Of a stretch of 64,000 bases of DNA, positions 1,317 to 59,768 are shown one piece after another (the first letter of the stretch is position 1; every line of letters starts with the position of its first letter). The stretch is from Hexactinellida sp. DTS-2022 (taxonomy: Eukaryota; Porifera; Hexactinellida). The position numbers and the translations under genes were made by a program. Location: NCBI GenBank assembly GCA_028753945.1, contig JAPNXP010000001.1, forward strand, positions 13,692,501 through 13,756,500, written 5' to 3'. The notes below the pieces were generated by a model. That model saw only the letters and a list, made by a program, of their open reading frames with translations, was not told the DNA's origin and ran no database searches.

Positions 1317-2552
1317 TTAGAACCATTGAAGAGGATAATTAGCATTATTAGACGCGACACAAATGGTTCCTAATTTGGAGATACAAACTCCTCGTGGCTC
1401 GATAAACTCCCCTAAGGCATTTCCTTTCCTTCCCAAGGTGAGAATATGCTGTCCCGATTCCGTATACACCTTGATGGCATTATTCCCACAGTCGCTAATG
1501 ATGATATTGCCAGCTGAGTCCAAACAGAAGAAGGAAGGGTTAGCGACCAAACTGTCCCCTGTCCCAAGAGAGACACAGGAACTGAGGGGGTGTCCTTCTC
1601 GAGAGAAGAAATGGACACATTTGGGACTCCAGCCTAGCACCACGATTCGATCAGCTGACAGCTTAACGTCTCTTGGGTGATTCAGCTGTCCTATTCCGAT
1701 GCAGGACTTGAATTTGAGGAGTTTCGAGTATGCACACACTCTGTTGTTGTAGCAATCTGCAACTAACACATCTCCGTTAGTGTCGATACAGAGTCCATAG
1801 GGATAGTTAAACTCTCCTTCCTTGTTTCCTTTAGTTCCAGTTCTGTTGATGAGTTTGGAATCTTTCTTTCGGAACTGCAACAATGCATGGTGCCCTGCGT
1901 CGGTTACGAATATGGACTCTTTGTTAACAGCTATTCCATGTGGCCACTCCAGCTTATCATTACCGAATTGTGCCACAAACTCTCCCTTTAACGACACTAT
2001 TTGCACACGACTGCTCCCATAATCTGCTACGTACATTAGCTCAGTGGATTCATCGAATGCTATTCCTGCGGCTTTCAACTCATTAGCACCTTCACCATAC
2101 TTCCCAGCTGTTAATACCGGTTCTCGCTTGAGAGAATAGTCCGGTATCTCACACGGGACTATCTCTCCTAGCTCGGATATCAGCTGTCGGATTGTGTCCG
2201 TATTTTGACACCTTAAGACGGGACATAGGAATGTGGCAGATGGTCCCAGTTTCTTAATGCCCTGTTGGTAGGCTTGTTTGGCCTGTTCATGGAACTCAAG
2301 GTTTGGGTTTACCTTTATGCTCATTTCCATCATTTGTTGCTGTACCCTTTCCAGTTCTTCTATGGCAGCGATACGAGTGGCCTCTTTGTTCCTGTGGTCC
2401 TCTCGCAGCTCACGGACCCTCTGGAGGAGAGCGTCCCTCCTCGCGATCAGCTGATCGATTAGGGAACCAAATGTTTGGTGGATGATAGTGGCGACATTGT
2501 CGAAATGTGCCATTTTATCAAAAGTTACATTTGTAGGCATATTAGTGGCCAT
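1317..2552 (-). CDS. NHL-propeller protein, paralogue 1 (RING-less TRIM-like)
   Basis: Single uninterrupted 411-residue frame. Residues ~25-85 are charged and heptad-like (…RVRELREDHRNKEATR…), a likely coiled coil as in the TRIM family. Residues 86-150 are a linker with C110-P-V-x-R-C115, and 151-411 form six NHL repeats (motifs EF..P.GL, VAD..N.RV). No RING, B-box, signal peptide or membrane segment. The start is supported by ATGGCC preceded by AAA and by identity across all paralogues; a second Met is at residue 5. Blade-face residues: KAA/YGSS, EWPH/AGHH, NYPY/CYNN, NHPR/GWSP, ANPS/CGNN, EPR/SNNA. It shares four of these sets with paralogue 6. NHL propellers bind protein or RNA in known families; the ligand here is unknown. 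An E3-scaffold or receptor role is inference only. Confidence 0.88.
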   Translation of the reverse strand: MATNMPTNVTFDKMAHFDNVATIIHQTFGSLIDQLIARRDALLQRVRELREDHRNKEATRIAAIEELERVQQQMMEMSIKVNPNLEFHEQAKQAYQQGIKKLGPSATFLCPVLRCQNTDTIRQLISELGEIVPCEIPDYSLKREPVLTAGKYGEGANELKAAGIAFDESTELMYVADYGSSRVQIVSLKGEFVAQFGNDKLEWPHGIAVNKESIFVTDAGHHALLQFRKKDSKLINRTGTKGNKEGEFNYPYGLCIDTNGDVLVADCYNNRVCAYSKLLKFKSCIGIGQLNHPRDVKLSADRIVVLGWSPKCVHFFSREGHPLSSCVSLGTGDSLVANPSFFCLDSAGNIIISDCGNNAIKVYTESGQHILTLGRKGNALGEFIEPRGVCISKLGTICVASNNANYPLQWF

Positions 2553-2612
2553 TTTAGTTTCTGTTACTAATTGAGTTTATTCAAATAATATAATTAATCT
2601 AATGCAGATCTA

Positions 2613-2619
2613 TCTTATA
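2613..2619 (-). promoter_or_regulatory. TATA-like box of NHL gene 1
   Basis: On the minus strand this reads TATAAGA, 61-67 bp upstream of the ATG, so a start site about 30 bp below it would leave a short 5' leader. The same word is at 10269-10275, 17443-17449, 29954-29960, 35396-35402, 46837-46843, 51690-51696 and 59829-59835, ahead of the other intact genes. In unit 4 it is changed to TCTTATT (plus strand). Conservation could simply reflect recent duplication. Confidence 0.45.
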
Positions 2620-2652
2620 CTTGTGTAACTTGAGAATACCAAAGTACGTCAA

Positions 2653-2769
2653 TGGTTGCTATGGTGATAATTGGAAAGAAGGGAATTTTATTGGATAATT
2701 GTGTCTACTGTGACTCAATAAACCAATAAAATTCCCTAACTTTCCAGTAACCATAGCATAGCCAAACCA
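2653..2769. promoter_or_regulatory. Upstream inverted repeat of NHL gene 1
   Basis: Two ~45-bp arms, TGGTTGCTATGG...GGGAATTTTATTGG and CCAATAAAATTCCC...CCATAGC...CCAAACCA, face each other across a ~28-bp loop about 100 bp upstream of the ATG. The arms contain CCAAT boxes, the loop contains TGACTCA (AP-1 consensus), and just outside is TACGTCA (CRE/ATF-like). A matching structure stands before every intact gene. It may be a promoter module or a captured foldback element; binding is not shown. Confidence 0.6.
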
Positions 2770-2800
2770 TTGTATGAATAATACGGTATTAGAATTCTAA

Positions 2801-2820
2801 GCGCCAAAATAGTTGGCGCC
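2801..2820. promoter_or_regulatory. E2F-like palindrome upstream of gene 1
   Basis: GCGCCAAAATAGTTGGCGCC is an imperfect palindrome containing TTTTGGCGC on the minus strand, a match to the E2F consensus TTTSGCGC. Close copies: 5797-5816 (relic unit), 10452-10471, 23619-23638, 30137-30156, near 35579, near 47021 and 60012-60031. It is degenerate in unit 3. Confidence 0.3.
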
Positions 2821-3502
2821 TGAATTTATTCATTTATAAGTTAGTTTATTAGTTGCTAATCTTTCCCCGCCTAAACACAATCAGATCGAAATACTCTTGC
2901 CATTTATGTTCAGTGTACCATCTACCTTGAAATGAACGATTATATAACCCAAACATAGTGGTAGGGAATTGAAAGTTTGGTTGTATTGTTGGCCCATCTT
3001 TATTACTCGCTATATCATCGACATTATTATTTAAAGTAGCTAGTGATCCAGAATGGTAATCTTTTCTAAGTACAAGGTAGCTAGATATTTCGTCTCTGAG
3101 ACAGTGGAACTACCAGTTGTTGTTGAAACACTATCTATATTTCTTCTACTCTTTTCTCTACCATTATCCCAAAAGTCTTTAATAGTACGTTTCATTGACG
3201 CGCTAATGCTAACAAAAATATAAATTACTATATCAAAACTAATTAATTTTGTAAAATTACCTAAGTGTTGTGTTGATATAAGTATACATAAATATAGACA
3301 CAATTAGGAAAATCGGGATTTAAATAAAAGAACGATAATCCTAGCCAGTACATGGTTCAGTCTAGGAATGTCTAACCGGACATTGCCCGGGTATGCCCGG
3401 TTCTATCTACTCCTATGCATACGGCCCGTGTAAAAATTTAATCCGGCCCACCCAAACTTGCACTAAACATTTGCACTCTGTAATATAGACTATTTCTTCA
3501 TA
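2821..3502. other. Repeated intergenic block with MKRTI reading-frame relic
   Basis: No intact gene. The minus strand at 3040-3195 reads MKRTIKDFWDNGREKSRRN..., open for 51 codons to a stop. Short basic starts of this type occur in hAT/ZMYM-type transposases, so it may be the first exon of the decayed transposase further right. Degraded copies are at 6180-6319, 53424-53570 and 54010-54145. The right end holds a CGGCCCGTGTAAAAATTTAA terminal motif typical of the hAT copy (see 36053). Confidence 0.35.
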
Positions 3503-3602
3503 CAGGTAAACCTCCCAAAGCGGCACCTCCGAGTAGCGGCAATCTCCGAGAAGCGGCACAAAATTATTCTCCCGATGGATGCCGCTTTGGGAGTTTTACC
3601 TG
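3503..3602. mobile_element. 100-bp pogo/mariner-like MITE (TA TSD)
   Basis: Terminal inverted repeats CAGGTAAACCTCCCAAAGCG and its complement at the right end (CGCTTTGGGAGTTTTACCTG), flanked by TA on both sides. The empty site is visible at about 6604-6620, where CTTCATATTCCTAAACC runs uninterrupted, so the boundaries are certain. Confidence 0.88.
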
Positions 3603-4429
3603 TATTCCTAAACCACAATTCAATTACTTTCATACTGAGTGTCAAATATCAATTGATTTGACATATCGAGGATTCTTGTTGATTTTGAATAACAGACAGG
3701 TGCTGTGATAATAATCCTTAGCGGTGTCATGATTTAGATGTGTTTCTTAACCTTTTCTGTTCAATTTCCGCTGGGATATTATACCCTAACCTATCTGTCC
3801 CTTTATCAATTAGCCTATATGGCCCAGCTAAATATTTGAGGAACCCAATGTGTCCCGCAATTAATTCGAGTTGTGCACCCTGATCTATACTTTTCGTTTT
3901 TGTATGTATATGTTTGTGTGTCTGAACTTTCCATCTGTCAACGCTTTGAGTCCTTTGTGTGAAGCGTACTAAATGCTGCTGTATTATTAAGATTATTATT
4001 TTTGTCACACAAAGAAGAATCATTATTTTCCGATCCTATGTTAATTCGGCCATCTGCCGAGTCTCTAGCTCTAATAGTCCACCAGTGGGCATAAGGCACA
4101 AGCTGAATTATTAGAGACTATATTAGAAATAGTTGTTTTGGGACTCAGAGTAGACTACAGTCGAAATCTTTTTTAAAAAACCAATTCTTTGCATGGAAAT
4201 AAGGTAGAAAATCCGATAGTTAGAATAAACCGATTGTAAATATATCAAAATAGAAATTTCTTACACATTTAAATTATTAGTTAGTTACTAAAAACCGATT
4301 ACGTTAGTTAGAAACCCGTTATTAGAAATTCCGGGTTCGACTGTATTAGAGTGACAGACTACAAATCTATAATTCAATCCTTTGAGCTTTGTCCTTAAAT
4401 TTCTCGATTAATTTCTCGGTTTCGATTAA
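3603..4429. other. Unidentified conserved intergenic block
   Basis: Repeated in most units (about 6600-7400, 11030-12120, 17990-18740, 24190-25080, 54440-55230). Minus-strand frames read YLAGPYRLIDKG... and LVPYAHWW..., which I do not recognise with confidence. They probably belong to the decayed mobile element that fills this part of every unit. Confidence 0.4.
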
Positions 4430-5075
4430 AGTCATCCAAGGTCGCCAAGCATCTCATCCTCTATAGTGGAACGGAGATAGGTTTTGATAAGCTTTTCACC
4501 ATGGAAGTCTTATATAGACTATAGTAGGTTTGCAAAGAGGGAAAGACACACTACGAAGTCCGTGTCCACAAAGTTTAAGATTGCCTCTGCTCTTTTCCTT
4601 ATTCACCGCTCGTGTCCTCGAAAAGAACTCCACGGTCTCTAAACTACTTCAGCTTTCGATCTGACAAACCATCTTGTCATACTTAGGCTCTTGAGTTCCT
4701 TCATCTGTAGACTGTGTCCATGTTCGTTAGCTCATTACGTTACAGCTCTTTTGCATTTCGAGGAACTTGTCATGTGGAACAGTAGATGAGAAAACTTGTG
4801 AAGTCAGAAATAGAATTAACAACTAGATTCAACCTGTGGCCCAACAATGGATAAAACACCCTTTGGGCAAATGCTCTCTCTCATCCACTGTTGCACGCCG
4901 TGGAGGCGATAAATCTTGATTGTCGCGAGTACCTCCGTAAGCTTGTTTGTGATGGCGGCCATTGTCCCGTGAAAAGTTATAGAATTCCTCCCTGATGGCT
5001 CCCTACACACACGTAACGAATACACAAATATATCTGCTCGCGTTTGCCACTGTCCCGAGTCTCGTCGCACATAAA
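4430..5075 (-). pseudogene. hAT transposase relic (ZMYM1/DUF4371 type), unit 1
   Basis: Reading right to left with several frame changes, the sequence gives the order expected of a DUF4371-type hAT transposase: R-R-D-S-G-Q... / EQIYLCIRYV-like, then AITNKLTEVL, then a MREHLPKG / FIHCW-type stretch (clearest in the copy at 36811), and further left a KFLEMQ-like and VLETVEFFSRT-like region. Frameshifts and stops make it non-functional. Copies sit in nearly every unit, so the insertion predates the tandem duplication. Confidence 0.6.
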
Positions 5076-5267
5076 GGAGAATAAGTGCGCTTGGTTAATC
5101 TCAGCCTTATACATTGCTTATCATCATCTGGACGAGTAATGGAGAGGATCTCGCCTTGGATGTTATGGTGGGTGTATTTGCAAAACAGGGTCGGGGCAAT
5201 CCTCCTGTGGAGAGTGCCAAAATAATAATATAGGCTAATGGGAACGCCTTAGGTAAATCAATGTGAT

Positions 5268-5645
5268 CTACTGAGTCCCTAAATATGAATTCCCATTTCC
5301 CATTCGCCAATAATATATTTCATATGTATAAAACTAACTAATCTCGAGATTTTAACAATATTACCATATATGGAAAGGTGTGAGAATCGTATAACTTACA
5401 TTCCACAAATTTTTTCGATAAACCAATATGACCGTTGGACTCCCAAAATATGATTTCCTGTACGAAAATGATACATTTCATGTGGATAAAGTTAAGTAAT
5501 CTCGAGATTTTAACAAAATTACCATATATGGAAGGGTGTAAAAATCGCATAACTTACATTCCACAAATATTTTCGATAAACCAATATTACCGTTGGACTC
5601 CCAAAATATGACTTCCTATACGACAATAATACATTTCCTATGTCT
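5268..5645. repeat. 158-bp tandem repeat, about 2.3 copies
   Basis: ATCTCGAGATTTTAACA recurs at 5341 and 5499, with matching sequence (CCATATATGGAA, CATTCCACAAAT, CGTTGGACTCCCAAAATATG) at the same offset. The stretch 5268-5340 resembles the end of a further degenerate copy. It lies inside a block whose ends (GGGGCAATCCTCCTGTGG near 5196 and CCCTATATTAAAGAAGTCCC near 5730) are adjacent, in inverse orientation, at 26.0-26.1 kb, so this appears to be an expanded insert unique to unit 1. Confidence 0.7.
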
Positions 5646-7786: not shown

Positions 7787-8190
7787 TTAGACTAATAGAG
7801 CAGTATTCTGCTGAAAGGCCCTCATAATCCCAACAATCTTCTCACGACAGATAGGACAGTCATGTTTCAACTGGTATAATCTATTTGCACAACTTTCGCA
7901 AAAACCAGCATGTGCATTACTTTCATGCAGTAAGGAAAAAATTTCTCCATGCTTCCCAAGGCATAGGCGCAAACTTTTGACCTGTAGCCAAAAGTGCCAG
8001 TGGTGCACCTCAATACAAAGTACAGGTGTACCTAGCACCACCTGCACCACCGTACTTTGCGCCTATGTCCCAAGGCACACATGACACTTGATCTCTCAAA
8101 ATTCGTCATCTCTGGATGAAACTGAATCTTCCTTATCTGATAGCCCTGTTTGATCACTTGATGTATTTTGCATACTTTGATTTTGACAGC
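7787..8190 (-). pseudogene. MDM2-type RING finger exon, broken by a MITE (copy A)
   Basis: With the MITE at 7962-8067 skipped and one 8-bp target copy kept, the minus strand reads C-H-V-C-L-G, then H-E-S-N-A-H-A-G-F-C-E-S-C-A-N-R-L and D-C-P-I-C-R-E-K-I. The order of zinc ligands (CxxC, H, H, CxxC, CPxC) and the short hydrophobic-aromatic tail match the C-terminal RING of the MDM2/MDM4 family, E3 ligases that act on p53. The MITE falls directly after the first CxxC, and an in-frame TGA lies five codons before it. Upstream sequence is Ser/Asp-rich (SDKEDSVSS). A complete exon end without the rest of the gene: a pseudogene fragment. Confidence 0.7.
7962..8067. mobile_element. 106-bp hAT-like MITE inside the RING exon (copy A)
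   Basis: Inverted ends CATAGGCGCAAA and TTTGCGCCTATG, flanked by perfect 8-bp direct repeats TCCCAAGG at 7954-7961 and 8068-8075. No coding capacity. Confidence 0.88.
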
Positions 8191-10210: not shown

Positions 10211-10308
10211 TTTAGTTTTTGTTCCGAATTGAGTTTATTCAAATAATATTTAATCTATTACAGATCTATCTTATACTTGTGTAACTTGAGAATACCAAAG
10301 TACGTCAA

Positions 10309-10425
10309 TGGTTGCTATGGTAATTATTGGAAGTGAGGGATTTTTTTTGGATTATTGTGTCTACTGTGACTCAATTAACCAATAAAATTCCCTAACTTTC
10401 CAGTAACCATAACATAGCCAAACCA
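10309..10425. promoter_or_regulatory. Upstream inverted repeat of NHL gene 2
   Basis: Same paired arms as at 2653-2769 with TGACTCA in the loop. The left arm is partly degraded (GGGATTTTTTTTGG). Confidence 0.55.
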
Positions 10426-12853: not shown

Positions 12854-13737
12854 GCTGGTACACATGGAATGAAAGGTTCAGGAACGAACTTATTGAACTT
12901 GAACTGAACGAACTGAACGAACTGAATTGAACGGATTGAACTGAACGAACTTAACTGAATAAAGATAAATTATAAATATAGATCCATTAAATATAATAGG
13001 TGACTGCAAAAGTGCTAATCTCTTAGCTTATATTCTAGCTTCTTAACTTGAATTTCAATAACAGCTTGGATGTTAGAACAGTCTATCATTAACGGAATAG
13101 TTCGACTTTCTAACTGTACACTGAACGAACTGAACGAATTGAACGAACGAGGGTTAGCCCGTGAACGAATTGAACGAACGTTGGTGGAGATGAAGTTAGG
13201 AGGTGAACTTGAACGAATTGAACGTGCGTCAATTTAAGATGAACTGAATTGCGTCAATTCAGTCCATTCGTGAACCTTTCATTCCCTGGGTATAACGTTA
13301 ATGTAGTGCACCTTTCATTCCCTGGGTATAACGTTAATGTAGTGCACCTTTCATTCCCTGGGTATAATGTTAATGTAGTGCACCTTTCATTCCCTGGGTA
13401 TAACGTTAATGTAGTGCACCTTTCATTCCCTGGGTATAACGTTAATGTAGTGCACCTTTCATTCCCTGGGTATAACGTTAATGTAGTGAACCTTTCATTC
13501 CCTGGGTATAACGTTAATGTAGTGCACCTTTCATTCCCTGGGTATAACGTTAATGTAGTGCACCCTTCATTCCCTGGGTATAACGTTAATGTAGTGCACC
13601 TTTCATTCCCTGGGTATAACGTTAATGTAGTGCACCTTTCATTCCCTGGGTATAACGTTAATGTAGTGCACCTTTCATTCCCTGGGTATAACGTTAATGT
13701 AGTGCACCTTTCATTCCCTGGCTGGTACACATGGAAT
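12854..13737. repeat. Direct-repeat-bounded block with 36-bp minisatellite (unit 2)
   Basis: Bounded by two copies of GCTGGTACACATGGAAT (12854 and 13721). Inside are an AATGAAAGGTTC...GAACGAAC start, many GAACTGAAC/GAACGAACT short repeats, and an inverted copy CGTGAACCTTTCATT that begins the minisatellite. The architecture (terminal duplicate, inverted sub-ends, internal tandem array) resembles tandem-repeat-bearing non-autonomous elements of invertebrates such as HINE/DINE or pearl types; this is inference. Confidence 0.6.
13275..13721. repeat. 36-bp minisatellite, 12 copies
   Basis: Units CCTTTCATTCCCTGGGTATA + ACGTTAATGTAGTGCA repeated 12 times plus a 15-bp partial unit, nearly identical. 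Because 36 is a multiple of three, both strands stay open (179 and 173 codons), but the composition and its copy-number variation between units argue against coding. Confidence 0.95.
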
Positions 13738-14520: not shown

Positions 14521-14940
14521 TTAGACTAATAGAGCAGTATTCTGCTGAAAGGCCCTCATAATCCCAACAATCTTCTCGCGACAGATAGGACAGTCATGTT
14601 TCAACTGGTGTAATCTATTTGCACAACTTTCGCAAAAACCAGCATGTGCATTACTTTCATGCAGTAAGGAAAAAATTTCTCCATGCTTCCCAAGGCATAG
14701 GCGCAAACTTTTGACCTGTAGCCAAAAGTGCCAGTGGTGCACCTCATTACAAAGTACAGGTGTACGTAGCACCACCTGCACCACCGTACTTTGCGCCTAT
14801 GTCCCAAGGCACACATGACACTTGATCTCTCAAAATTCGTCATCTCTGGATGAAACTGAATCTTCCTTATCTGATAGCCCTGTTTGATCACTTGATGTAT
14901 TTTGGATACGTGTACTTTGGTTTTGACAGCCCATCGTCCA
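14521..14940 (-). pseudogene. MDM2-type RING finger exon, broken by a MITE (copy B)
   Basis: Second copy of the fragment at 7787-8190, with the same MITE at the same base (14696-14801) and the same in-frame TGA. One residue differs (C-A-N-R-L-H-Q versus L-Y-Q). The shared lesions show that it was already dead before this part of the array duplicated. Confidence 0.7.
14696..14801. mobile_element. 106-bp hAT-like MITE inside the RING exon (copy B)
   Basis: Same element and same TSD (TCCCAAGG at 14688-14695 and 14802-14809) as 7962-8067. Confidence 0.88.
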
Positions 14941-17383: not shown

Positions 17384-17482
17384 TTTAGTTTCTGTTCGAA
17401 TTGAGTTTATTCAAATAATATAATTAATCTACTACAGATCTATCTTATACTTGTGTAACCTGAGAATTCCAAAGTACGTCAA

Positions 17483-17599
17483 TGGTTGCTATGGTGATTA
17501 TTGGAAAGAAGGGAATTTTATTGGATAATTGTGTCTACTGTGACTCAATAAACCAATAAAATTCCCTAACTTTCCAGTAACCATAGCATAGCCAAGCCA
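17483..17599. promoter_or_regulatory. Upstream inverted repeat of NHL gene 3
   Basis: Well preserved arms and TGACTCA loop; the right end reads GCCAAGCCA. The E2F-like palindrome beyond it is degenerate (CCGCCAAATTTTTTGGCTCC). Confidence 0.58.
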
Positions 17600-20497: not shown

Positions 20498-21055
20498 GCT
20501 GGTACACATGGAATGAAAGGTTCACGAACGAACTTATTGAACTTGAACTGAACGAACTGAACGAACTGAATTGAACGGATTGAACTGAACAAACTTAACT
20601 GAATAAAGATAAATTATAAATATAGATCCATTAAATATAATAGTTGACTGCAAAAGTGCTAATTTCGGACATCCCTAGTGGACTCATGTCTCTTAGCTTA
20701 TATTCTAGTTTCTTAACCTGAATTTCAATAACAGCTTGGATGTTAGAACAGTCTATCATTAACGGAATAGTTCGACTTTCTAACTGTACACTGAACGAAC
20801 TGACTAAACGAATTGAACGGATTGAACGAACGCTGGTGGAGCTGAAGTTAGGAGGTGAACTTGAACGAACTGAACGTGCGTCAATTTAAGATGAACTGAA
20901 CGTGCGTCAATTTAAGATGAACTGAATTGCGTCTATTCAGTCCGTTCGTGAACCTTTCATTCCCTGGGTATAACGTTAATGTAGTGCACCTTTCATTCCC
21001 TGGGTATAACGTTAATGTAGTGCACCTTTCATTCCCTGGCTGGTACGCATGGAAT
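20498..21055. repeat. Direct-repeat-bounded block with 36-bp minisatellite (2 copies)
   Basis: Same structure as 12854-13737. The minisatellite is 20953-21039 (two units plus 15 bp). The right boundary repeat has one change (GGTACGCATGG). Confidence 0.75.
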
Positions 21056-22152: not shown

Positions 22153-23391
22153 TTAGAAACATTGAAGAGGATAATTAGGATTACTAGAGACGACACAAAT
22201 GGTTCCTAATTTGGAGATACAAACTCCTCGTGGCTCGATAAACTCCCCTAAGGCATTTCCTTTCCTTCCCAAGGTGAGAATATGCTGTCCCGATTCCGTA
22301 TACACCTTGATGGAATTACTCCCATAGTCGCTAATGATTATATTACCCGCTAAGTCCAAACAGAAGAAGAAAGGTTTAGCGACCGAACAACTGTCCTCTG
22401 TCCCTCTAGAGACACAGGAACTGAGGGGGTGTCCTTCTCGAGAGAAGAAATGGACACATTTGGGACTCCTGTCTAGCACCACGATTCGATCAGCTGACAG
22501 CTTAACGTCTCTAGGGTAATCCAGCTGTCCTATTCCGATGCAGGATTTGAATTTGAGGAATTTCGAGTATACGCACACTCTGTTGTTCCTGCAATCTGCA
22601 ACTAACACATCTCCGTTAGTGTCGATACAGAGTCCACGGGGCCAGTTAAACTCTCCTTCCTTGTTGCCTTTAGTTCCAGTTCTGTTGATGACTTTGCAAT
22701 CTTTCTTTCTGAACTGTAACAATGCATCGTGCCATGTGTCGGTGACGAATATGGACTCTTTGTTAACAGCTATTCCATGTGGCCACCTGAGCTTATCATT
22801 CCTGAATTGTGCCACAAACTCTCCCTTTAACGACACTAATTGCACACGACTGTTCATACAATCTGCTACGCACATTAGCTCAGTGGATTCATCGAATGCT
22901 ATTCCTCTGGCTCTCAACTCATTAGCACCATAACCAAACTTCCCAGCTGTTAATACCGGTTCTCGCTTGAGAGAATAGTCCGGTATCTCACACGGGACTA
23001 TCTCTCCTAGCTCGGATATCAGCTGTCGGATTGTGTCCTTATTTTGACACCTTAAGACGGGACATAGGAATGTGGCAGATGGTCCCAGTTTCTTAATGCC
23101 CTGTTGGTAGGCTTGTTTGGCCTGTTCATGGAACTCTAGGTTTGGGTTAACCTTTATGCTCATTTCCATCATATGTTGCTGTACCCTTTCGAGTTCTTCT
23201 ATGGCAGCGATACGAGTGGCCTCTTTGTTCCTGTGGTCCTCTCGCAGCTCACGGACCCTCTGGAGGAGAGCGTCCCTCCTCGCGATCAGCTGATCGATTA
23301 GGGGATCGAATGTTTGGTGAATGATAGTGGTGACATTGTCGAAATGTGCCATTTTATCGAAAGTTACATTTGTAGGCATATTAGTGGCCAT
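22153..23391 (-). CDS. NHL-propeller protein, paralogue 4
   Basis: 412 residues: one extra residue in blade 5 (TEDSCSVAKPF in place of TEDSLVANPF). Intronless. Blade-face residues: RAR/CMNS, RWPH/TWHD, NWPR/CRNN, DYPR/DRSP, AKPF/YGSN, EPR/SSNP. The C-terminal ~110 residues are almost identical to paralogues 5 and 10, whereas blades 1-3 differ, so a gene-conversion or crossover boundary probably falls between blades 3 and 4. Blade 1 reads ELMCVADCMNSRVQLV, with a Cys in place of the usual Tyr. Confidence 0.88.
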   Translation of the reverse strand: MATNMPTNVTFDKMAHFDNVTTIIHQTFDPLIDQLIARRDALLQRVRELREDHRNKEATRIAAIEELERVQQHMMEMSIKVNPNLEFHEQAKQAYQQGIKKLGPSATFLCPVLRCQNKDTIRQLISELGEIVPCEIPDYSLKREPVLTAGKFGYGANELRARGIAFDESTELMCVADCMNSRVQLVSLKGEFVAQFRNDKLRWPHGIAVNKESIFVTDTWHDALLQFRKKDCKVINRTGTKGNKEGEFNWPRGLCIDTNGDVLVADCRNNRVCVYSKFLKFKSCIGIGQLDYPRDVKLSADRIVVLDRSPKCVHFFSREGHPLSSCVSRGTEDSCSVAKPFFFCLDLAGNIIISDYGSNSIKVYTESGQHILTLGRKGNALGEFIEPRGVCISKLGTICVVSSNPNYPLQCF

Positions 23392-23491
23392 TTTGGTTTC
23401 TGTAGCGAATTGAGTTTATTGAAATATTATAATTAATCTATTACAGATCTATCTTATTCTTGTGTAACCTGAGAATACCCAAGTACGTCAA

Positions 23492-23593
23492 TGGTTGCTA
23501 TGGTGATTATTGGAAAGAAGGGAATTTTATTGGATAATTGTGTCTACTGTGAATCAATAAACCAATAAAATTCCCTAACTTTCCAGTAACCAT
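23492..23593. promoter_or_regulatory. Upstream inverted repeat of NHL gene 4 (right arm shortened)
   Basis: The outer part of the right arm (AGCATAGCCAAACCA) is deleted, and the AP-1-like word is mutated to TGAATCA. The TATA-like word is also altered, making this the most damaged promoter among the intact genes. Confidence 0.5.
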
Positions 23594-29894: not shown

Positions 29895-29993
29895 TTTAGT
29901 TTTAGTACGAATTGAGTTTATTCAAATAATATAATTAATCTATTACAGTTCTATCTTATACTTGTGTAATTTGAGAATACCAAAGTACGTCAA

Positions 29994-30110
29994 TGGTTGC
30001 TATGGTAATTACTGGAGAGAAGGGAATTTTCTTGGTTAATTGTGTCTACTGTGACTCAATAAACCAATAAAATTCCCTAACTTTCCAGTAACCATAGCAT
30101 AGCCAAACCA
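29994..30110. promoter_or_regulatory. Upstream inverted repeat of NHL gene 5
   Basis: Arms intact except GGGAATTTTCTTGG on the left; TGACTCA present. Shares these details with unit 10. Confidence 0.58.
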
Positions 30111-35337: not shown

Positions 35338-35435
35338 TTAGTTTCAGTACGAATTGAGTTTATTCAAATAATATAATTAATCTATTACAGCTCTATCTTA
35401 TACTTGTGTAATTTGAGAATACCAAAGTACGTCAA

Positions 35436-35551
35436 TGGTTGCTATGGTAATTACTGGAAAGATGGGAATTTATTGGATAATTGTGTCTACTGTAACTCAA
35501 TAAACCAATAACATTCCCTAACTTTCCAGTAACCATAGCATAGCCAAACCA
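35436..35551. promoter_or_regulatory. Upstream inverted repeat of NHL gene 6
   Basis: Arms recognisable with single-base losses (GGGAATTTATTGG); the loop word is changed to TAACTCA. Confidence 0.55.
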
Positions 35552-38209: not shown

Positions 38210-39520
38210 GCTGGTACACATGGAATGAAAGGTTCACGAACGAACTTATTGAACTTGAACTGAACGAACTGAACGAACTGAATTGAACGGATTGAACTGA
38301 ACAAACTTAACTGAATAAAGATAAATTATAAATATAGATCCATTAAATATAATAGTTGACTGCAAAAGTGCTAATTCCGGACATCCCTAGTGGACTCATG
38401 TCTCTTAGCTTATATTCTAGCTTCTTAACCTGAATTTCAATAACAGCTTGGATGTTAGAATCTATCATTAACGGAATAGTTCGACTTTCTAACTGTACAC
38501 TGAACGAACTGACTAAACGAATTGAACGGATTGAACGGATTGAACGGATTGAACGGATTGAACGGATTGAACGAACGCTGGTGGAGCTGAAGTTAGGAGG
38601 TGAACTTGAACGAACTGAACGTGCGTCAATTTAAGATGAACTGAACGTGCGTCAATTTAAGATGAACTGAATTGCGTCAATTCAGTCCGTTCGTGAACCT
38701 TTCATTCCCTGGGTATAACGTTAATGTAGTGCACCTTTCATTCCCTGGGTATAACGTTAATGTAGTGCACCTTTCATTCCCTGGGTATAACGTTAATGTA
38801 GTGCACCTTTCATTCCCTGGGTATAACGTTAATGTAGTGCACCTTTCATTCCCTGGGTATAACGTTAATGTAGTGCACCTTTCATTCCCTGGGTATAACG
38901 TTAATGTAGTGCACCTTTCATTCCCTGGGTATAACGTTAATGTAGTGCACCTTTCATTCCCTGGGTATAACGTTAATGTAGTGCACCTTTCATTCCCTGG
39001 GTATAACGTTAATGTAGTGCACCTTTCATTCCCTGGGTATAACGTTAATGTAGTGCACCTTTCATTCCCTGGGTATAACGTTAATGTAGTGCACCTTTCA
39101 TTCCCTGGGTATAACGTTAATGTAATGCACCTTTCATTCCCTGGGTATAACGTTAATGTAGTGCACCTTTCATTCCCTGGGTATAACGTTAATGTAGTGC
39201 ACCTTTCATTCCCTGGGTATAACGTTAATGTAGTGCACCTTTCATTCCCTGGGTATAACGTTAATGTAGTGCACCTTTCATTCCCTGGGTATAACGTTAA
39301 TGTAGTGCACCTTTCATTCCCTGGGTATAACGTTAATGTAATGCACCTTTCATTCCCTGGGTATAACGTTAATGTAATGCACCTTTCATTCCCTGGGTAT
39401 AACGTTAATGTAGTGCACCTTTCATTCCCTGGGTATAACGTTAATGTAATGCACCTTTCATTCCCTGGGTATAACGTTAATGTAGTGCACCTTTCATTCC
39501 CTGGCTGGTACACATGGAAT
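38210..39520. repeat. Direct-repeat-bounded block with expanded 36-bp minisatellite
   Basis: Same architecture as 12854-13737. A pentameric run of ATTGAACGG (38520-38570) has also expanded here. Confidence 0.75.
38698..39504. repeat. 36-bp minisatellite, 22 copies
   Basis: 22 units plus 15 bp. Most are identical; a few carry GTAATGCA for GTAGTGCA, and these variants cluster in the right third (39121, 39337-39376, 39445). Both strands remain open (299 and 293 codons) purely because of the period. Confidence 0.95.
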
Positions 39521-40128: not shown

Positions 40129-40907
40129 TTAGAAACATTGTAGAGGATAGTTAGGATTATAAAACGCGACACAAATGGTTCCTAATTTGGAGATACAAAC
40201 TCCTCGTGGCTCGATAAACTCCCCTAAGGCATTTCCTTTCCTTCCCAAGGTGTGAATATGCTGTCCCGTTTCCGTATACACCTTGATGGCATTACTCCCC
40301 CTGTCGCTAATGATGATATTACCAGCTGAGTCCAAACAGAAGAAGATAGGGCTAGCGACCAAACTGTCCCCTGTCCCTCTAGAGACACAGGAACTGAGGG
40401 GGTGTCCTTCTCGAGAGAAGAAATGGACACATTTGGGACTCTTGTCTAGCACCACGATTCGATCAGCTGACAGCTTAACGTCTCTAGTGTAATACAGCTG
40501 TCCTATTCCGATGCAGGACTTGAATTTGAGGAGTTTCGAGTATACGCACACTCTGTGGTTCCTGTTATCTGCAACTAACACTTCTCCGTTAGTGTCGATA
40601 CAGAGTCCACAGGGATAGTAAAACTCTCCTTCCTTGTTGCCATAAGTTCCAGTTCTGTTGATGAGTTTGTGATCTTTCTTTCGGAACTGTAACAATGCAT
40701 GGTGCTCTGTGTCGGTTACGTATATGGACTCTTTGCTAACAGCTATTCCATGTGGTCTCTTGAGCTTATCATTCCTGAATTGTGCCACAAACTCTCCCTT
40801 TAATGACACTATTTGCACACGACTGTTCCAATAATCTGCTACGTACATTAGCTCAGTGGACTCATCGAATGCTATTCCTTCCGCTTTCAACTCATTAGCA
40901 CCTGCCT
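40129..40907 (-). pseudogene. NHL-propeller paralogue 7, 5'-truncated
   Basis: Homology starts at G-A-G-A-N-E-L (family residue ~153) and runs intact to the stop. The coiled coil, linker, promoter and ATG are gone, replaced by unrelated DNA with AATTAACGCG words. Blade-face residues: KAE/YWNS, KRPH/TEHH, YYPC/NRNH, YYTR/DKSP, ASPI/RGSN, EPR/FYNP. No ATG opens the frame, so it is probably untranslated, although the propeller has no stop, which points to a recent truncation. It could act as a donor for gene conversion. Confidence 0.75.
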
Positions 40908-45043: not shown

Positions 45044-45540
45044 TCAGGTGGGGTACACTCAAATTTAGCGTGGTTATTGTTAATCATACATTTCCTTATT
45101 ATTATAGTCTTGTAAAGACTTGTTCAATTTGTTGTCTCCATTTTATAATTTGTTCAAGCATATTTACATTTATAAATGCAAAATTTTATGAATTACTTTT
45201 AATAAAAACTTTGTTAACAACGTCCCATGATGTATCTACTATGATTAATACATTAAATCCTACAAATTAAACAAAGAAGATACTTACTATTTAGTAATTG
45301 ATTATAGTTGTTTATTTTATAAATCAATCTATATTATTAAAACTCGATTGTTGTGTGTATGTTTGTTTGTGTGTGACAAACACAGACAAACACAGACAAA
45401 CACAGAAAAACACAGACAAACACACAACATTGTGCTTTTATAGCATTCTGTACAATAAAACAGTTTGATTTTCCTCTTATTCAGTTTACACCATTTTAAT
45501 GATACCAATAAATAAACAAACAAATAAATAAATATACAAA
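45044..45540. other. 3' flank of NHL gene 8
   Basis: AT-rich; a CAGACAAACA simple repeat at 45378-45425. No gene. Confidence 0.5.
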
Positions 45541-46776
45541 CTAAAAACATTGAAGAGGATAATTAGCATTATAAGACACGACACAAATGGTTCCTAATTT
45601 GGAGATACAAACTCCATAGGGCGCGATAAACTCCCCTAAGGCATTTCCTTTCCTTCCCAAGGTGAGAATATGCTGTCCCGATTCCGTATACACCTTGATG
45701 GCATTACTCCCATGGTCGCTAATGATGATATTACCAGCTGAGTCCAAACAGAAGAAGAAAGGGCTAGCGACCAAACTGTCCTCTGTCCCTCTAGAGACAC
45801 AGGAGCTGAGGGGGTGTCCTTCTCGAGAGAAGAAATGGACACATTTGGGACTCTTGTCTAGCACAACGATTCGATCAGCTGACAGCTTAACGTCTCTTGG
45901 TTCATACAGCTGGCCTATTCCGATGCAGGATTTGAATTTGAGGAGTTTCGAGTATACGCACACTCTGTCGTTGTTGTGATCTGCAACTAACACATCTCCG
46001 TTAGTGTCGATACAGAGTCCATTTGGATAGTTAAACTCTCCTTCCTTGTTGCCTTGAGTTCCAGTTCTGTTGATGAGTTTGTGATCTTTCTTTCGGAACT
46101 GTAACAATGCATCGTGCCCTGCGTCGGTTACGAATATGGACTCTTTGTTAACAGCTATTCCATGTGGCCACTCCAGCTTATCATTTCTGAATTGCTTCAC
46201 AAACTCTCCCTTTAAAGACACTAATTGCACACGATTGTTCCAACAATCTGCTATGTACATTAGCTCAGTGGATTCATCGAATGCTATTCCTGCGGCTTTC
46301 AACTCATTAGCACCTGCACCAAACTTCCCAGCTGTTAATTCCGGTTCTCGCTTGAGAGAATAGTCCGGTATCTCACACGGGACTATCTCTCCTAGCTCGG
46401 ATATCAGCTGTCGGATTGTGTCCAAATTTTGACACCTGAAGACGGGACATAGGAATGTGGCAGATGGTCCCAGTTTCTTAATTCCCTGTTGGTAGGCTTG
46501 TTTGGCCTGTTCATGGAACTCTAGGTTTGGGTTAACCTTTATGCTCATTTCCATCATTTGTTGCTGTACCCTTTCCAGTTCTTCTATGTCAGCGATACGA
46601 GTGGCCTCTTTGTTCCTGTGGTCCTCTCGCAGCCCTCGGACCCTCTGGAGGAGAGCGTCCCTCCTCGCGATCAGCTGATCGATTAGGGAATCGAATGTTT
46701 GGTGGATTAAAGTGGCGACATTGTCGAAATGTGCCATTTTATCAAATGTTACATTTGTAGGCATATTAGTGGCCAT
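45541..46776 (-). CDS. NHL-propeller protein, paralogue 8
   Basis: 411 residues, intronless. Blade-face residues: KAA/CWNN, EWPH/AGHD, NYPN/HNND, YEPR/DKSP, ASPF/HGSN, APY/SYNA. Blades 3, 4 and 6 carry residue sets found in no other copy. N-terminal half nearly invariant (RVRGLRE for RVRELRE, IADIEE for IAAIEE). VKQFRND replaces VAQFRND. Same start and stop context as the family. Confidence 0.88.
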   Translation of the reverse strand: MATNMPTNVTFDKMAHFDNVATLIHQTFDSLIDQLIARRDALLQRVRGLREDHRNKEATRIADIEELERVQQQMMEMSIKVNPNLEFHEQAKQAYQQGIKKLGPSATFLCPVFRCQNLDTIRQLISELGEIVPCEIPDYSLKREPELTAGKFGAGANELKAAGIAFDESTELMYIADCWNNRVQLVSLKGEFVKQFRNDKLEWPHGIAVNKESIFVTDAGHDALLQFRKKDHKLINRTGTQGNKEGEFNYPNGLCIDTNGDVLVADHNNDRVCVYSKLLKFKSCIGIGQLYEPRDVKLSADRIVVLDKSPKCVHFFSREGHPLSSCVSRGTEDSLVASPFFFCLDSAGNIIISDHGSNAIKVYTESGQHILTLGRKGNALGEFIAPYGVCISKLGTICVVSYNANYPLQCF

Positions 46777-46876
46777 TTTAGTTTTTGTTACGAATTGAGT
46801 TTATTCAAATAATATAATTAATCTATTACAGATCTATCTTATACTTGTGTAACCTGAGAATACCAAAGTACGTCAA

Positions 46877-46993
46877 TGGTTGCTATGGTAATTATTGGTT
46901 AGAAGGGAATTTTATTGGATAATTGTGTCTACTGTGACTCAATAAACCAATAAAATTCCCTAACTTTCCACTAACCATAGCATAGCCAAACCA
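46877..46993. promoter_or_regulatory. Upstream inverted repeat of NHL gene 8
   Basis: Arms and TGACTCA loop preserved. The following palindrome reads GCGCCATAATTGTTGGCGCC. Confidence 0.58.
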
Positions 46994-51629: not shown

Positions 51630-51729
51630 TTTAGTTTTAGTTACGAATTGAGTTTGTTCAAATAATATAATTAATCTATTACAGATCTATCTTATACTTG
51701 TGTAACTTGAGAATACCAAAGTACGTCAA

Positions 51730-51845
51730 TGGTTGCTATGGTGATTTTTGGAAAGAAGGGAATTTTATTGGATAATTGTGTCTACTGTGACTCAATAAAC
51801 CAATAAAATTCCCTAACTTTCCAGTAAACAAGCATAGCCAAACCA
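51730..51845. promoter_or_regulatory. Upstream inverted repeat of NHL gene 9
   Basis: Arms preserved with AGTAAACAAGCATAGCC on the right side; TGACTCA in the loop. The palindrome beyond it is degraded (GCGCCAAATAGTTGGCACC). Confidence 0.56.
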
Positions 51846-55905: not shown

Positions 55906-56276
55906 AAAGGAGAATAAGTGCACTTGGTTAATCTCAGCCTCTATTAATTGCTTATCATCATCTGGGCGAGTAATGGAGAGGATCTCGCCTTGGATGTTAT
56001 GGTGGGTCGTTACCTACGTTATAATAAGACCTGTTCATTAGTGTTAAATTTTGGACCATGGATGTCGGTTAAGTCCATTGATTCTTTTTGCAATAAATGT
56101 TATAGTTAGAGATAATTAACCAAGTAGTAATCCAGAAGAAGTAGAATACTGCACACACACTTAGATCGATTTCAAATAATGGCGTTTGGCTATTATATCC
56201 TGATTACCGATGAGATTCATTTCACCATGGCTGTGATGTGAGGGTTGCTGTTCTCGTGACCCTTTAATCCCCTATC

Positions 56277-56686
56277 CAGAGGGTCCGAATGGATCGGAAG
56301 ACGTATCCATATCCGCTCCATAATCCATCACATCTAGAATTAAAATTCCAAATCCGCTCCATATCCGTAAATTACGGATTTTCAATCCGTAATCCGTAAT
56401 CCATATAGACCCTCTATCCATAGCTTATTTTTAAATTCTACAAAATATATACAGATTTCCAAATCCATACGTATTTGCAAAATCCATATGGATCCATTAT
56501 ACCATATTACGATAAGGATTTTTTATAGATTGAGAATAATTTCCAAATTCTTTAAAATATCCGATATTTACGGATTTGGAATGGATTTGAGAATTATTCC
56601 AAATCCGTTCCAAAATCCGTAAATTACGGATTTGACGGATTCCACATCCGTAAATCCGTAAATCCGTAATCCATTCGGATCCTCTG
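56277..56686. mobile_element. 410-bp hAT MITE of ATCCGTAA repeats (8-bp TSD CCCCTATC)
   Basis: Ends CAGAGGGTCCGAATGGAT and ATCCATTCGGATCCTCTG, with perfect duplications CCCCTATC at 56269-56276 and 56687-56694. The empty site AATCCCCTATCCTTTCC occurs near 37985 and 41876. The interior is built from ATCCGTAA/TTACGGAT and related words. Confidence 0.93.
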
Positions 56687-56694
56687 CCCCTATC

Positions 56695-56913
56695 CTTCCC
56701 ATAGCTGCAGTTCTTGTATCCAGTTTTCACCCACTCTTCTGAAGAAGAGGATGATTTGAATGCCCTGCACTGCAGTAGACATGAGGTCAAGCCCTTTTTT
56801 AAAAAGGGCTTAAGTCCATGCTCATGCCTTTAATAATGGGCTTAAGTCCGGACTGGTCCGGAGTCCGGAGGGTGCCCGTAACTGGGAATTTTCCGGATCT
56901 GAGAAATACAAAT
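56695..56913. other. Spacer with GGGCTTAAGTCC words, unit 9
   Basis: No gene; near-identical to 20290-20497. Confidence 0.4.
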
Positions 56914-57432
56914 GCTGGTACACATGGAATGAAAGGTTCACGAACGAACTTATTGAACTTGAACTGAACGAACTGAACGAACTGAATTGAACGGATTGAA
57001 CTGAACAAACTTAACTGAATAAAGATAAATTATAAATATAGATCCATTAAATATAATAGGTGACTGCAAAAGTGCTAATTCCGGACATCCCTAGTGGACT
57101 CTTGTCTCTTAGCTTATATTCTAGTTTCTTAACTTGAATTTCAATAACAGCTTGGATGTTAGAATCTATCATTAACGGAATAGTTCGACTTTCTAACTGT
57201 ACACTGAACGAACTGACTAAACGAATTGAACGGATTGAACGAACGCTGGTGGAGCTGAAGTTAGGAGGTGAACTTGAACGAACTGAACGTGCGTCAATTT
57301 AAGATGAACTGAACGTGCGTCAATTTAAGATGAACTGAATTGCGTCAATTCAGTCCGTTCGTGAACCTTTCATTCCCTGGGTATAACGTTAATGTAGTGC
57401 ACCTTTCATTCCCTGGCTGGTACACATGGAAT
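56914..57432. repeat. Direct-repeat-bounded block with 36-bp minisatellite (1 copy)
   Basis: Minisatellite 57366-57416 (one unit plus 15 bp). Confidence 0.75.
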
Positions 57433-58112
57433 TCCCAAGTGTCTATATTTTCTAAATACACTCAAAATTTCAAACTGATGTTTTTGACGGGTTGTGGATA
57501 ATTTAAGATATGTATCTGTTATAATCATAGACTCCTTAAGTAAAGGACTGGAACGTCGCGATCTCGGGGGTTTTAACTTGAGTCTGAGAGGCTCCAATTA
57601 TAAAAATTGATAAAGCATTAAGTTTCCGGTCTCCAAATGTGATTTTTGGCATATAGGGGTAACTTTTGGCACCCGTCAACAATTTGAGGTTTTCACTCCA
57701 AATTTATCACACCTCGACAAGTTATGACGTCATTCTCACATTTCGAGAACCCTGAAAAGTCACTTAATCGCACATAATTCGCGCACTCTAAGAGATAAAA
57801 TCTGAAAATTTAATAGAACATGCACATTAATGATGCTGACACTTTGGTAACACCAGATTGCCAATATGCTTACTCATTATCACATGATGACGTAATCACT
57901 AAAATTTCACATTTTTAAATTTGACTATTTAGGCCTATTTACGCTTTATAATCATTGTTATAAGTGTCACCAACCGCAAAGCGGTTGGTGTGTGGTTGGG
58001 TTCTTCCGCAAAGCACGCTAGTATCTATATAGATTGATTCTACATTATATCTATATAGACTAGGGCGTCTCGCTTGCTAGGTCGCATTTAAGATATGTTT
58101 TAATTGATTATA
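57433..58112. other. Recently duplicated spacer with Helitron-like end
   Basis: Copy of 21056-21735. It shares ACATGCACATTAATG with the unit 5 copy but CCCTATGTAAG with the unit 4 copy, a mosaic of the two. No gene. Confidence 0.4.
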
Positions 58113-58307
58113 CTGTCAGGTTCTTTTATTATGAACATTCAAGGGACCAAAAATTGTGTTCATAATAGAGAGACTTCATAATAAGCGAACTCAACCTAAT
58201 ACAAACCCTATGTAAGTTGTTAAATTGGGACCATAGGGCTTGTTCATATTAAAAAAAACTTCATATTAAGCAGACGAAAAGTTGTTCACAATAAGCAGAC
58301 TTGACTG
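58113..58307. mobile_element. 195-bp pogo-like MITE (TA TSD)
   Basis: Same element and site as 21736-21931. Confidence 0.75.
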
Positions 58308-58529
58308 TAGTTGTTTATTTTATAAATCAATCTATATTATTAAAATTCGATTGTTGTGTGTGTGGTTGACACACAAACAAACACAGTTACACAACATTGC
58401 GCTTTTATTATTGAGATTGATTACCAGGATAGCATTTTGTACAATAAAACAGTTTGATTTCGTTTTCCTCTTATTCAGTTTCACCATTTTAATAATACCA
58501 ATAAACAAACAAATAAATAAATATACAAA

Positions 58530-59768
58530 TTAGAAACATTGAAGAGGATAATTAGGATTACTAGAGACGACACAAATGGTTCCTAATTTGGAGATACAAA
58601 CTCCTCGTGGCTCGATAAACTCCCCTAAGGCATTTCCTTTCCTTCCCAAGGTGAGAATATGCTGTCCCGATTCCGTATACACCTTGATGGAATTACTCCC
58701 ATAGTCGCTAATGATTATATTACCAGCTGAGTCCAAACAGAAGAAGAAAGGTTTAGCGACCGAACAACTGTCCTCTGTCCCTCTAGAGACACAGGAACTG
58801 AGGGGGTGTCCTTCTCGAGAGAAGAAATGGACACATTTGGGACTCCTGTCTAGCACCACGATTCGATCAGCTGACAGCTTAACGTCTCTAGGGTAATCCA
58901 GCTGTCCTATTCCGATGCAGGATATGAATTTAAGGAGTTTCGAGTATACGCACACTCTGTTGTTGTCGCTATCTGCAACTAACACATCTCCGTTAGTGTC
59001 GATACAGAGTCCTTCGGGATAGTCAAACTCTCCTTCCTTGTTGCCTCTTGTTCCAGTTCTGTTGATGAGTTTGTGATCTTTCTTTCGGAACTGTAACAAT
59101 GCATCGTGCCATGTGTCGGTTACGAATATGGACTCTTTATTAACAGCTATTCCATGTGGCTTCCCTAGCTTATCATTACCGAATTGTGCCACAAACTCTC
59201 CCTTTAACGACACTATTTGCACACGACTGTTGTAACAATCTGCTACGTACATTAGCTCAGTGGATTCATCTAATGCTATTCCTGCGGCAATCAACTCATT
59301 AGCACCTGCACCAAACTTCCCAGCTGTTAATTCCGGTTCTCGCTTGAGAGAATAGTCCGGTATCTCACACGGGACTATCTCTCCTAGCTCGGATATCAGC
59401 TGTCGGATTGTGTCCGTATTTTGACACCTGAAGACGGGACATAGGAATGTGGCAGATGGTTCCAGTTCCTTAATGCCTTGTTGGTAGACTTGTTTGGCCT
59501 GTTCATGGAACTTTAGGTTTGGGTTAACCTTTATGCTCATTTCCATCATTTGTTGCTGTACCCTTTCCAGTTCTTCTATGGCAGCGATACGAGTGGCCTC
59601 TTTGTTCCTGTGGTCCTCTCGCAGCTCACGGACCCTCTGGAGGAGAGCGTCCCTCCTCGCGATCAGCTGATCGATTAGGGGATCGAATGTTTGGAGGATG
59701 ATAGTGGCGACATTGTCGAAATGTGCCATTTTATCAAAAGTTACATTTGTAGGCATATTAGTGGCCAT
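58530..59768 (-). CDS. NHL-propeller protein, paralogue 10
   Basis: 412 residues, intronless. Blade-face residues: IAA/CYNS, GKPH/TWHD, DYPE/SDNN, DYPR/DRSP, AKPF/YGSN, EPR/SSNP. Blades 4-6 are near-identical to paralogue 4, while blades 1-3 have their own sets (I160, G202-K203, D249, S-D-N-N). N-terminal half: TIILQTF for TIIHQTF and GIKELEP for GIKKLGP. Same ATGGCC start. Confidence 0.88.
   Translation of the reverse strand: MATNMPTNVTFDKMAHFDNVATIILQTFDPLIDQLIARRDALLQRVRELREDHRNKEATRIAAIEELERVQQQMMEMSIKVNPNLKFHEQAKQVYQQGIKELEPSATFLCPVFRCQNTDTIRQLISELGEIVPCEIPDYSLKREPELTAGKFGAGANELIAAGIALDESTELMYVADCYNSRVQIVSLKGEFVAQFGNDKLGKPHGIAVNKESIFVTDTWHDALLQFRKKDHKLINRTGTRGNKEGEFDYPEGLCIDTNGDVLVADSDNNRVCVYSKLLKFISCIGIGQLDYPRDVKLSADRIVVLDRSPKCVHFFSREGHPLSSCVSRGTEDSCSVAKPFFFCLDSAGNIIISDYGSNSIKVYTESGQHILTLGRKGNALGEFIEPRGVCISKLGTICVVSSNPNYPLQCF

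Follow-up and report, generated by a model that had tools for sequence, protein, structure and literature searches.

The window analysed here, a stretch of 64,000 nucleotides (C1:13692501-13756500 of a genome of 112.4 Mb in 18 contigs), carries a tandem array of genes whose predicted products join a conserved, probably helical N-terminal half (N-half) to a six-bladed NHL propeller. At a fixed register of positions, residues on one face of the propeller appear to have been pushed apart by diversifying selection. The family shows the hallmarks of a variable repertoire, namely a multigene family, a constant scaffold and diversifying selection on one surface. We consider it fairly probable that it constitutes a germline-encoded repertoire for non-self recognition built on the NHL propeller, most likely intracellular and related to defence.

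Inspection and alignment of open reading frames (ORFs) recovered nine intact ATG-to-stop frames of 411-412 residues and one truncated copy, all on the minus strand (Table 1); the first-pass annotation of this DNA had likewise reported nine intact genes and a truncated one. The annotation had also called the genes intronless; the frames are indeed uninterrupted, a property of frames and not of transcripts. Residues are numbered here after the gene at 45541..46776, which also served as the first sequence of the AlphaFold model. Among the ten window copies, 104 of the 412 alignment columns vary. The columns of highest entropy lie at or beside the residue ranges previously listed as hypervariable, although residues 161, 204, 221 and 403 within those ranges are invariant in the ten copies and residue 180 is nearly so; the residues quoted earlier as an example for blade 3 read as given. 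The variation had been assigned to two turns in every blade. This holds as a register of positions -3 and -1, counted from the P-x-G glycine, and +1 and +2, counted from the D-x-x-N aspartate (D+1 and D+2), except that a variable +2 position is absent from blades 4 and 6.

The tandem array is present in the window, but the family extends beyond it. A search with the N-half found, among the matches listed, 69 places of a close family with N-half identity of 82-99% on 12 contigs (nine in the window and 22 within C1 13.66-13.81 Mb). It also brought up a second group, with identity of about 50-53%. In 15 of the 69 the frame is short or broken by an internal stop. When N-half and NHL matches are merged, fragments included, NHL-type places number at least 214 on all 18 contigs. 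This figure combines 150 NHL places with 116 of 150 N-half rows (34 weaker rows were omitted) and is a lower bound because both searches list only the best matches. Forty of the 60 close-group places outside the window were retrieved, 20 of them picked mostly for long open frames, so that the set leans towards intact copies. Of these, 37 were full length (not L022, L024 and L042) and, together with the nine window genes, gave 46 intact members: nine from the window, nine more from the same array and 28 dispersed elsewhere. Fourteen of 60 related frames were dropped, seven as partial family frames and seven as distant relatives. An assembly artefact is unlikely, as a single contig holds the array copies and their flanks differ in part. 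Retrocopying is a doubtful origin: the copies have a short tail and at least ~150 bp of upstream sequence in common, and no poly(A) tail was seen.

The register holds in the 46 intact members, where most of the highest-entropy sites are the loop sites picked out in the first-pass annotation. Variable sites that it had missed include 152/154, 241 and 329 (in the linker, at the end of strand D or in the D-A loop), 232 (on the opposite face) and 113/118 (before the propeller); 241, 329 and 232 are among the highest-entropy sites of the 46 members. Strings formed by the 24 core sites are almost all unique (45 distinct among 46 members). At these sites Tyr, Trp, Arg and Asn are abundant and Val, Gln and Pro nearly absent, with Y, W and R reaching 12.7%, 9.2% and 12.5% against 2.2%, 0.1% and 3.7% in the rest of the propeller. 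Their net charge averages +2 and ranges from -3 to +7, and such a range does not indicate a general clamp for the RNA backbone.

Selection was assessed by pooled, tree-free ratios of nonsynonymous to synonymous change (omega) in the 46 members. At 36 sites defined a priori, omega is 2.88 (column bootstrap 1.56-5.28), compared with 0.39 across the remaining propeller and 0.45 across the N-half. Resolved by blade position, with six codons each and without intervals, omega is 5.17 at -3, 4.21 at -1, 9.35 at D+1 and 3.99 at D+2, and the intervening residues are constrained (0.22 at -2, 0.23 at 0 and 0.12 at D). When 32 sites were picked in the nine window genes and evaluated in the 28 dispersed members, omega was 3.83 against 0.39, a design that reduces circularity, yet the copies share ancestry. 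The proportion of synonymous differences (pS) is 0.158 at the 36 sites and 0.141 in the rest of the propeller; this similar synonymous diversity points to selection and not to a mutational hotspot. For single sites, we used our own grid analysis after FUBAR with an MG94-type model. With one tree it gave 62 sites at posterior probability (PP) >0.9; with seven segment trees, used because the copies recombine, it gave 51 sites at PP>0.95, of which the propeller holds 36, the N-half 13 and the linker 2. A single simulation with neither positive selection nor recombination produced no site at PP>0.9 among 417. The expectation that dN/dS exceeds 1 at the variable sites thus survived both the pooled ratios and the site-wise test.

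On the AlphaFold model, the 36 selected propeller sites comprise 27 in top-face loops, 1 in bottom-face loops and 8 in strands, five of the latter at the top edge (162, 252, 329, 340 and 387). Loops were assigned to faces by standard propeller topology, in which the D-A and B-C loops form the top and the A-B and C-D loops the bottom. The top loops hold 27 selected sites in 79 residues and the bottom loops one in 48 (Fisher p = 5.6e-6). The earlier proposal that the selected residues share one face is supported, as no spread over both faces was found.

Mapped by alignment and spacing, these positions correspond to ligand contacts in related proteins. The available passages of PMC5908797 name 14 residues of LIN41 that contact RNA (563, 564, 581, 582, 611, 628, 629, 658, 660, 676, 707, 722, 752 and 770). 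All 14 fall on -4, -3, -1, D+1 or D+2 with a blade step of 47 residues, where aligned ranges supply the two D+1 anchors (our 178 = LIN41 675 and our 219 = LIN41 722), other positions follow from spacing, the offset is that of a 435-824 construct in a 409-residue chain with an inferred tag length, and the spacing from -3 to D+1 is itself inferred from the contacts. In Brat, residues F916, N933 and R875 would fit -3, D+1 and -1 if the chain begins at residue 756, which we take to be its start. On this mapping the diversified positions are the ligand-contact positions of the fold, because the LIN41 and Brat contacts fall on the same register. That the RNA face is fast-evolving and strongly different among TRIM-NHL subfamilies is already published, according to the available parts of PMC5908797 and PMC9070667; the latter also describes a charged top surface as the one used by NHL domains for RNA binding, and the former reports, in the part available, no significant conservation of the TRIM2 surface to the RNA surfaces of LIN41 or Brat.

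The pattern recurs in more distant relatives. A second subfamily of 19 genes (of 20; L063 was too short, and L065 was kept despite an aberrant C-terminus), about 86% alike mutually and with an N-half about 50% like that of the window genes, has an omega of 5.02 at the 24 core sites and 0.49 in the rest of the propeller. In the C14/C7 family (eight members, 30-34% like the window genes) core entropy is 1.59 against 0.36, and in the C17 family (five of seven members, three of them 98-99% alike; L084 and L085 are short) it is 0.66 against 0.17; permutation over 23 of the 24 sites gives p 1e-4 for each. The copies also exchange sequence. Adjacent polymorphic sites are less often incompatible than remote ones (p = 0.001 in a test modelled on the pairwise homoplasy index, PHI), linkage is low past tens of bases, and the genes starting at 22153 and 58530 have identical core sites in blades 4-6 and different ones in blades 1 and 3. 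Blades are thus distributed mosaically among the window copies.

Two window proteins were scanned with Pfam. Their NHL repeats scored 100.2 and 84.6 bits against a cut-off of 20; neither RING nor B-box was found in them, nor any other effector domain. Judged by this domain content, the family is not a TRIM, because RING and B-box were not found in the two proteins. Twenty B-box places occur in the genome, none of them closer than 25 kb to the 69 listed close-family places. AlphaFold predicts helices at 12-80 and 86-101 with a predicted local distance difference test (pLDDT) under 60, and one of the two scanned proteins has a match to CCDC22_CC far below the cut-off; the N-half is probably helical and may form a coiled coil. 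From about residue 161 the model is a propeller of six blades and 23 strands, the sixth blade having three, with blocks at pLDDT 74-96 apart from one at 63. The best Foldseek matches are TRIM71, Thin and LIN41 (best E 1.9e-21), with TRIM71 bound to RNA ranked first; the nearest solved relative by sequence is TRIM2. Inspection by eye, used here in place of a predictor, reveals neither a signal peptide nor a membrane segment. The window does contain RING-like fragments, in frames of their own. Two minus-strand stretches, at 7787-8062 and 14521-14796, have frames that resemble the C-terminal half of a RING finger (PF13920, 29.1 and 30.0 bits, cut-off 27); they lie inside a duplication that is 94.7% alike, downstream of NHL genes. 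They may represent a broken or spliced gene for an E3 ligase that was copied with the array.

All nine intact window genes are preceded by an exact copy of a 20-bp promoter-like element, CCATAGCAACCATTGACGTA, picked by eye from the best-conserved upstream block. Genome-wide, it has 65 copies at up to 2 mismatches, 50 of them exact, compared with 5 for a backward control. Of the 65 copies, 62 are found no more than 250 bp upstream of a start in the close family, 57 of these at a distance of 89-98 bp, and the element precedes 61 of the 69 listed starts. Since any 20-mer in a duplicated unit would be family-specific, the informative part is the exactness of 50 of the 65 copies. Upstream sequence of at least ~150 bp is common to the 26 copies with retrieved flanks, as is a short AT-rich tail; most dispersed copies share little else, and a few share more with one another. 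Because nearly all copies carry the same short element upstream, they are probably co-regulated and switched on together. The element may resemble an RFX X-box beside a cAMP response element (CRE), and the block seems to us reminiscent of the X/X2 module of major histocompatibility complex (MHC) class II genes. The short 3' tail, rich in ATTTA and with a consensus ATTAAA downstream, is presumably akin to an AU-rich element, which suggests a short-lived, inducible mRNA. As separate observations, the upstream block (for example, around 2645-2664) has an X-box-like site next to a CRE-like site with CCAAT further upstream, and in the array copies it contains an inverted repeat GGGAATTTTATTGG...CCAATAAAATTCCC.

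We propose that each gene encodes a RING-less protein in which a conserved helical, probably coiled-coil N-half would be followed by the six-bladed NHL propeller, and which may oligomerise. Purifying selection and exchange between copies would keep the scaffold constant, and diversifying selection would alter some four top-face residues of each blade, within the D-A and B-C loops or next to them, such that each copy would show a different binding surface on the same stalk. The copies would be switched on together via the common element, the AU-rich tail making their mRNAs short-lived and inducible. Likely ligands would be fast-evolving non-self molecules, whether protein or RNA, from viruses, microbes or selfish elements. 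They would be encountered within the cell, presumably in the cytosol, because neither signal peptide nor membrane segment is evident by eye; binding might elicit a downstream signal. We further speculate, tentatively and with considerable doubt, that an early-branching animal has here evolved its own anticipatory, germline-encoded intracellular system in which many co-regulated proteins of stalk and NHL propeller have turned an ancestral RNA-reading face into a combinatorial reader of non-self RNA or protein, refreshed by gene conversion and selection.

Several observations weigh against this proposal. Outside the core register, omega also exceeds 1, at lower nonsynonymous proportions (pN), at -12 (1.56), -10 (2.28), -4 (1.27), +5 (1.16), D+5 (2.68), D+6 (1.13), D+14 (1.87) and D+19 (2.17). 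Recombination among the copies is significant and inflates tree-based site tests; only the pooled ratios escape it, being tree-free, and the simulation, which included no recombination, does not calibrate this source of error. Thirteen N-half sites pass PP>0.95 (15, 16, 25, 85, 86, 92, 94, 100, 101, 103, 113, 116 and 118), despite the conservation of that half as a whole, which may be a sign of selection on the stalk or else a product of gene conversion, so that selection, or its inflation by recombination, is not confined to the top face. The strand sites 194, 371 and 410 are not at the top edge, and selected site 232 lies in a bottom loop. Divergence over the upstream 175 bp averages 12.9%, much like that at the propeller's synonymous sites, and a claim of constraint there applies to the conserved blocks only. 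Moreover, no effector domain that could account for a signalling output was found in the two scanned proteins.

The main rival explanation holds that the genes encode diversified RNA-binding regulators in conflict with their targets, the top face reading diverging mRNAs of the organism itself or transcripts of transposons or viruses. KRAB zinc fingers facing retroelements offer a comparable arms race. We regard this as unlikely, though deserving of real weight, and it overlaps with a non-self repertoire if the non-self ligand is RNA. It would account for the fit of the 14 LIN41 contacts, by spacing and alignment ranges, and of the three Brat residues, given the assumed chain start, as well as for the first rank of TRIM71 with RNA and the enrichment of aromatics and Arg at the variable sites. 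The top surface is also the reported RNA-binding face of NHL domains in the available part of PMC9070667. However, the net charge, averaging only +2 and falling as low as -3, is unlike a uniformly basic patch, and the closest relative by sequence, TRIM2, is the one whose surface lacks significant conservation to the LIN41 and Brat RNA surfaces (PMC5908797, as far as available). The first-pass interpretation, a diversified recognition surface on a fixed scaffold, stands as an evolutionary inference from face and dN/dS; the immune or allorecognition role attached to it is putative, and RNA, a live alternative as ligand, had gone unnamed.

Allorecognition, in which the copies or a polymorphic subset would label individuals or control fusion in the manner of Podospora WD40 receptors, seems to us improbable. 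The fungal HNWD propellers follow the same logic of conserved repeats with four diversifying codon positions on a predicted interaction face (available part of PMC12222747), and the array bears signs of exchange between copies. Still, 69 listed places on 12 contigs, 61 of them with one element, fit poorly with a single allodeterminant locus; nothing ties the genes to fusion, and inspection by eye gives no sign of a signal peptide or membrane segment. We find it very improbable that redundant copies have drifted neutrally or under relaxed constraint in loops that tolerate change: short frames or internal stops in 15 of the 69 listed places and the general tolerance of loops to substitution would suit it, but drift predicts omega near 1 instead of the 4-9 observed at fixed register positions, the bottom loops have a single selected site in 48 residues, and pS at the 36 sites is like that elsewhere in the propeller. 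We give hardly any credence to targeted mutation of the variable codons, by a process like a diversity-generating retroelement or by hypermutation. Variation is limited to single codons or short runs between near-invariant ones, as such a process might leave it; however, all four bases occur at every codon position with no clear adenine-template signature at the sites, where no search aimed at a template or a reverse transcriptase was made, and synonymous diversity is not elevated there.

Among known systems, the TRIM-NHL proteins (TRIM2/3, TRIM71/LIN41, Brat, Mei-P26 and Thin) share the six-bladed NHL propeller after a helical stretch, and the variable sites described here coincide with RNA-contact positions of LIN41 and, if its chain starts at residue 756, Brat. 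The present family differs in that RING and B-box were not found (two proteins), in its 69 listed close places with compact uninterrupted frames, and in a face diversified among paralogues of one genome. In teleost finTRIMs and TRIM5alpha, as described in the available part of PMC2657112, tens of clustered genes lie on different chromosomes, the N-terminal parts are conserved, and positive selection falls mostly in loops of the C-terminal recognition domain, as here. In contrast to the finTRIM signature of RING-B-box, with B30.2 in long forms, none of which was found in the two proteins scanned, the present genes carry an NHL propeller in place of B30.2, probably in another phylum. Virus induction is a feature on their side of the comparison. 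The HNWD (het-d/het-e) WD40 NLRs of Podospora also diversify four codons per repeat on the predicted interaction face of a beta-propeller (PMC12222747, available part), but their repeats are 80-100% identical within a gene. Here the blades are dissimilar and variation lies between paralogues, not in shuffled repeats; no domain other than NHL was found in the two proteins scanned, and the host is an animal. Like the proteins described here, NHLRC1/Malin and other TRIM-derived NHL proteins lack part of the RING-B-box-coiled-coil module (PMC3503706); unlike the present genes, Malin retains RING, and the available part of that source does not describe its genes as a hypervariable family. NHL is named once for Halichondria panicea, in a figure legend on sponge pattern-recognition receptors (PMC8242945), and the passage available mentions no hypervariable sites in those NHL models.

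Germline-encoded variable repertoires are thus already known, including fungal WD40 propellers and fish TRIMs. An NHL-based repertoire in an animal was not found among the open-licence papers listed by our searches, nor were hypervariable NHL propellers recognised there, as judged by titles, abstract openings and passages. Immunoglobulin and leucine-rich repeat (LRR) domains are other scaffolds of variable repertoires. If the proposal is true, the NHL propeller, in what is probably a sponge, would be added to these, next to B30.2 in fish TRIMs and WD40 in fungi, and a propeller face known for RNA binding could turn into a diversified binding surface. What these proteins bind is a concrete, testable question, for which the family supplies a natural set of candidate binders, dozens in number, that share a scaffold and differ mainly at the face.

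Table 1. Genes, upstream elements and 3' tail located in the window (positions counted from its first nucleotide).
Feature	Position	Strand	Basis
Intact helical-stalk/NHL gene, 411 aa	1317..2552	-	ORF + alignment
Intact helical-stalk/NHL gene, 411 aa	8975..10210	-	ORF + alignment
Intact helical-stalk/NHL gene, 411 aa	16148..17383	-	ORF + alignment
Intact helical-stalk/NHL gene, 412 aa	22153..23391	-	ORF + alignment
Intact helical-stalk/NHL gene, 412 aa	28656..29894	-	ORF + alignment
Intact helical-stalk/NHL gene, 412 aa	34099..35337	-	ORF + alignment
Truncated copy, 253 aa, propeller only, without N-terminal half; first listed start codon TTG	40129..40890	-	
Intact helical-stalk/NHL gene, 411 aa	45541..46776	-	ORF + alignment
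Intact helical-stalk/NHL gene, 411 aa	50394..51629	-	ORF + alignment
Intact helical-stalk/NHL gene, 412 aa	58530..59768	-	ORF + alignment
Element CCATAGCAACCATTGACGTA	2645..2664	-	genome motif search
Element CCATAGCAACCATTGACGTA	10301..10320	-	genome motif search
Element CCATAGCAACCATTGACGTA	17475..17494	-	genome motif search
Element CCATAGCAACCATTGACGTA	23484..23503	-	genome motif search
Element CCATAGCAACCATTGACGTA	29986..30005	-	genome motif search
Element CCATAGCAACCATTGACGTA	35428..35447	-	genome motif search
Element CCATAGCAACCATTGACGTA	46869..46888	-	genome motif search
Element CCATAGCAACCATTGACGTA	51722..51741	-	genome motif search
Element CCATAGCAACCATTGACGTA	59861..59880	-	genome motif search
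Short 3' tail, ATTTA-rich, consensus ATTAAA downstream	45460..45540	-	shown for one gene

No exact copy of the element was found near the truncated gene. Scans of the window with Rfam (gathering threshold) and for tRNAs (bacterial code) gave no matches. A 36-bp minisatellite occupies 13270-13721 and 38693-39504 (12.6 and 22.6 copies, 98-99% match), with a short tract at 20948-21039; it is open on both strands, producing long mirror frames of a 12-residue repeat that are probably not genes. Elsewhere in the genome, SRCR domains with identical scores follow one another at steps of ~7.64-7.66 kb in C13:1250394-1291140, an arrangement suggestive of another receptor family that was tandemly duplicated very recently. 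SRCR matches number at least 153 genome-wide and nuclear-receptor DNA-binding domains two; together with the 20 B-box places, these counts would fit a demosponge, two nuclear receptors being typical of that group. A bdelloid origin found no support: four units of the six-base bdelloid telomere repeat gave 12 overlapping matches, all within one array in C18, and the backward control gave 12 as well. An internal array of the hexamer TGTGGG lies at C18:4086723-4086812.

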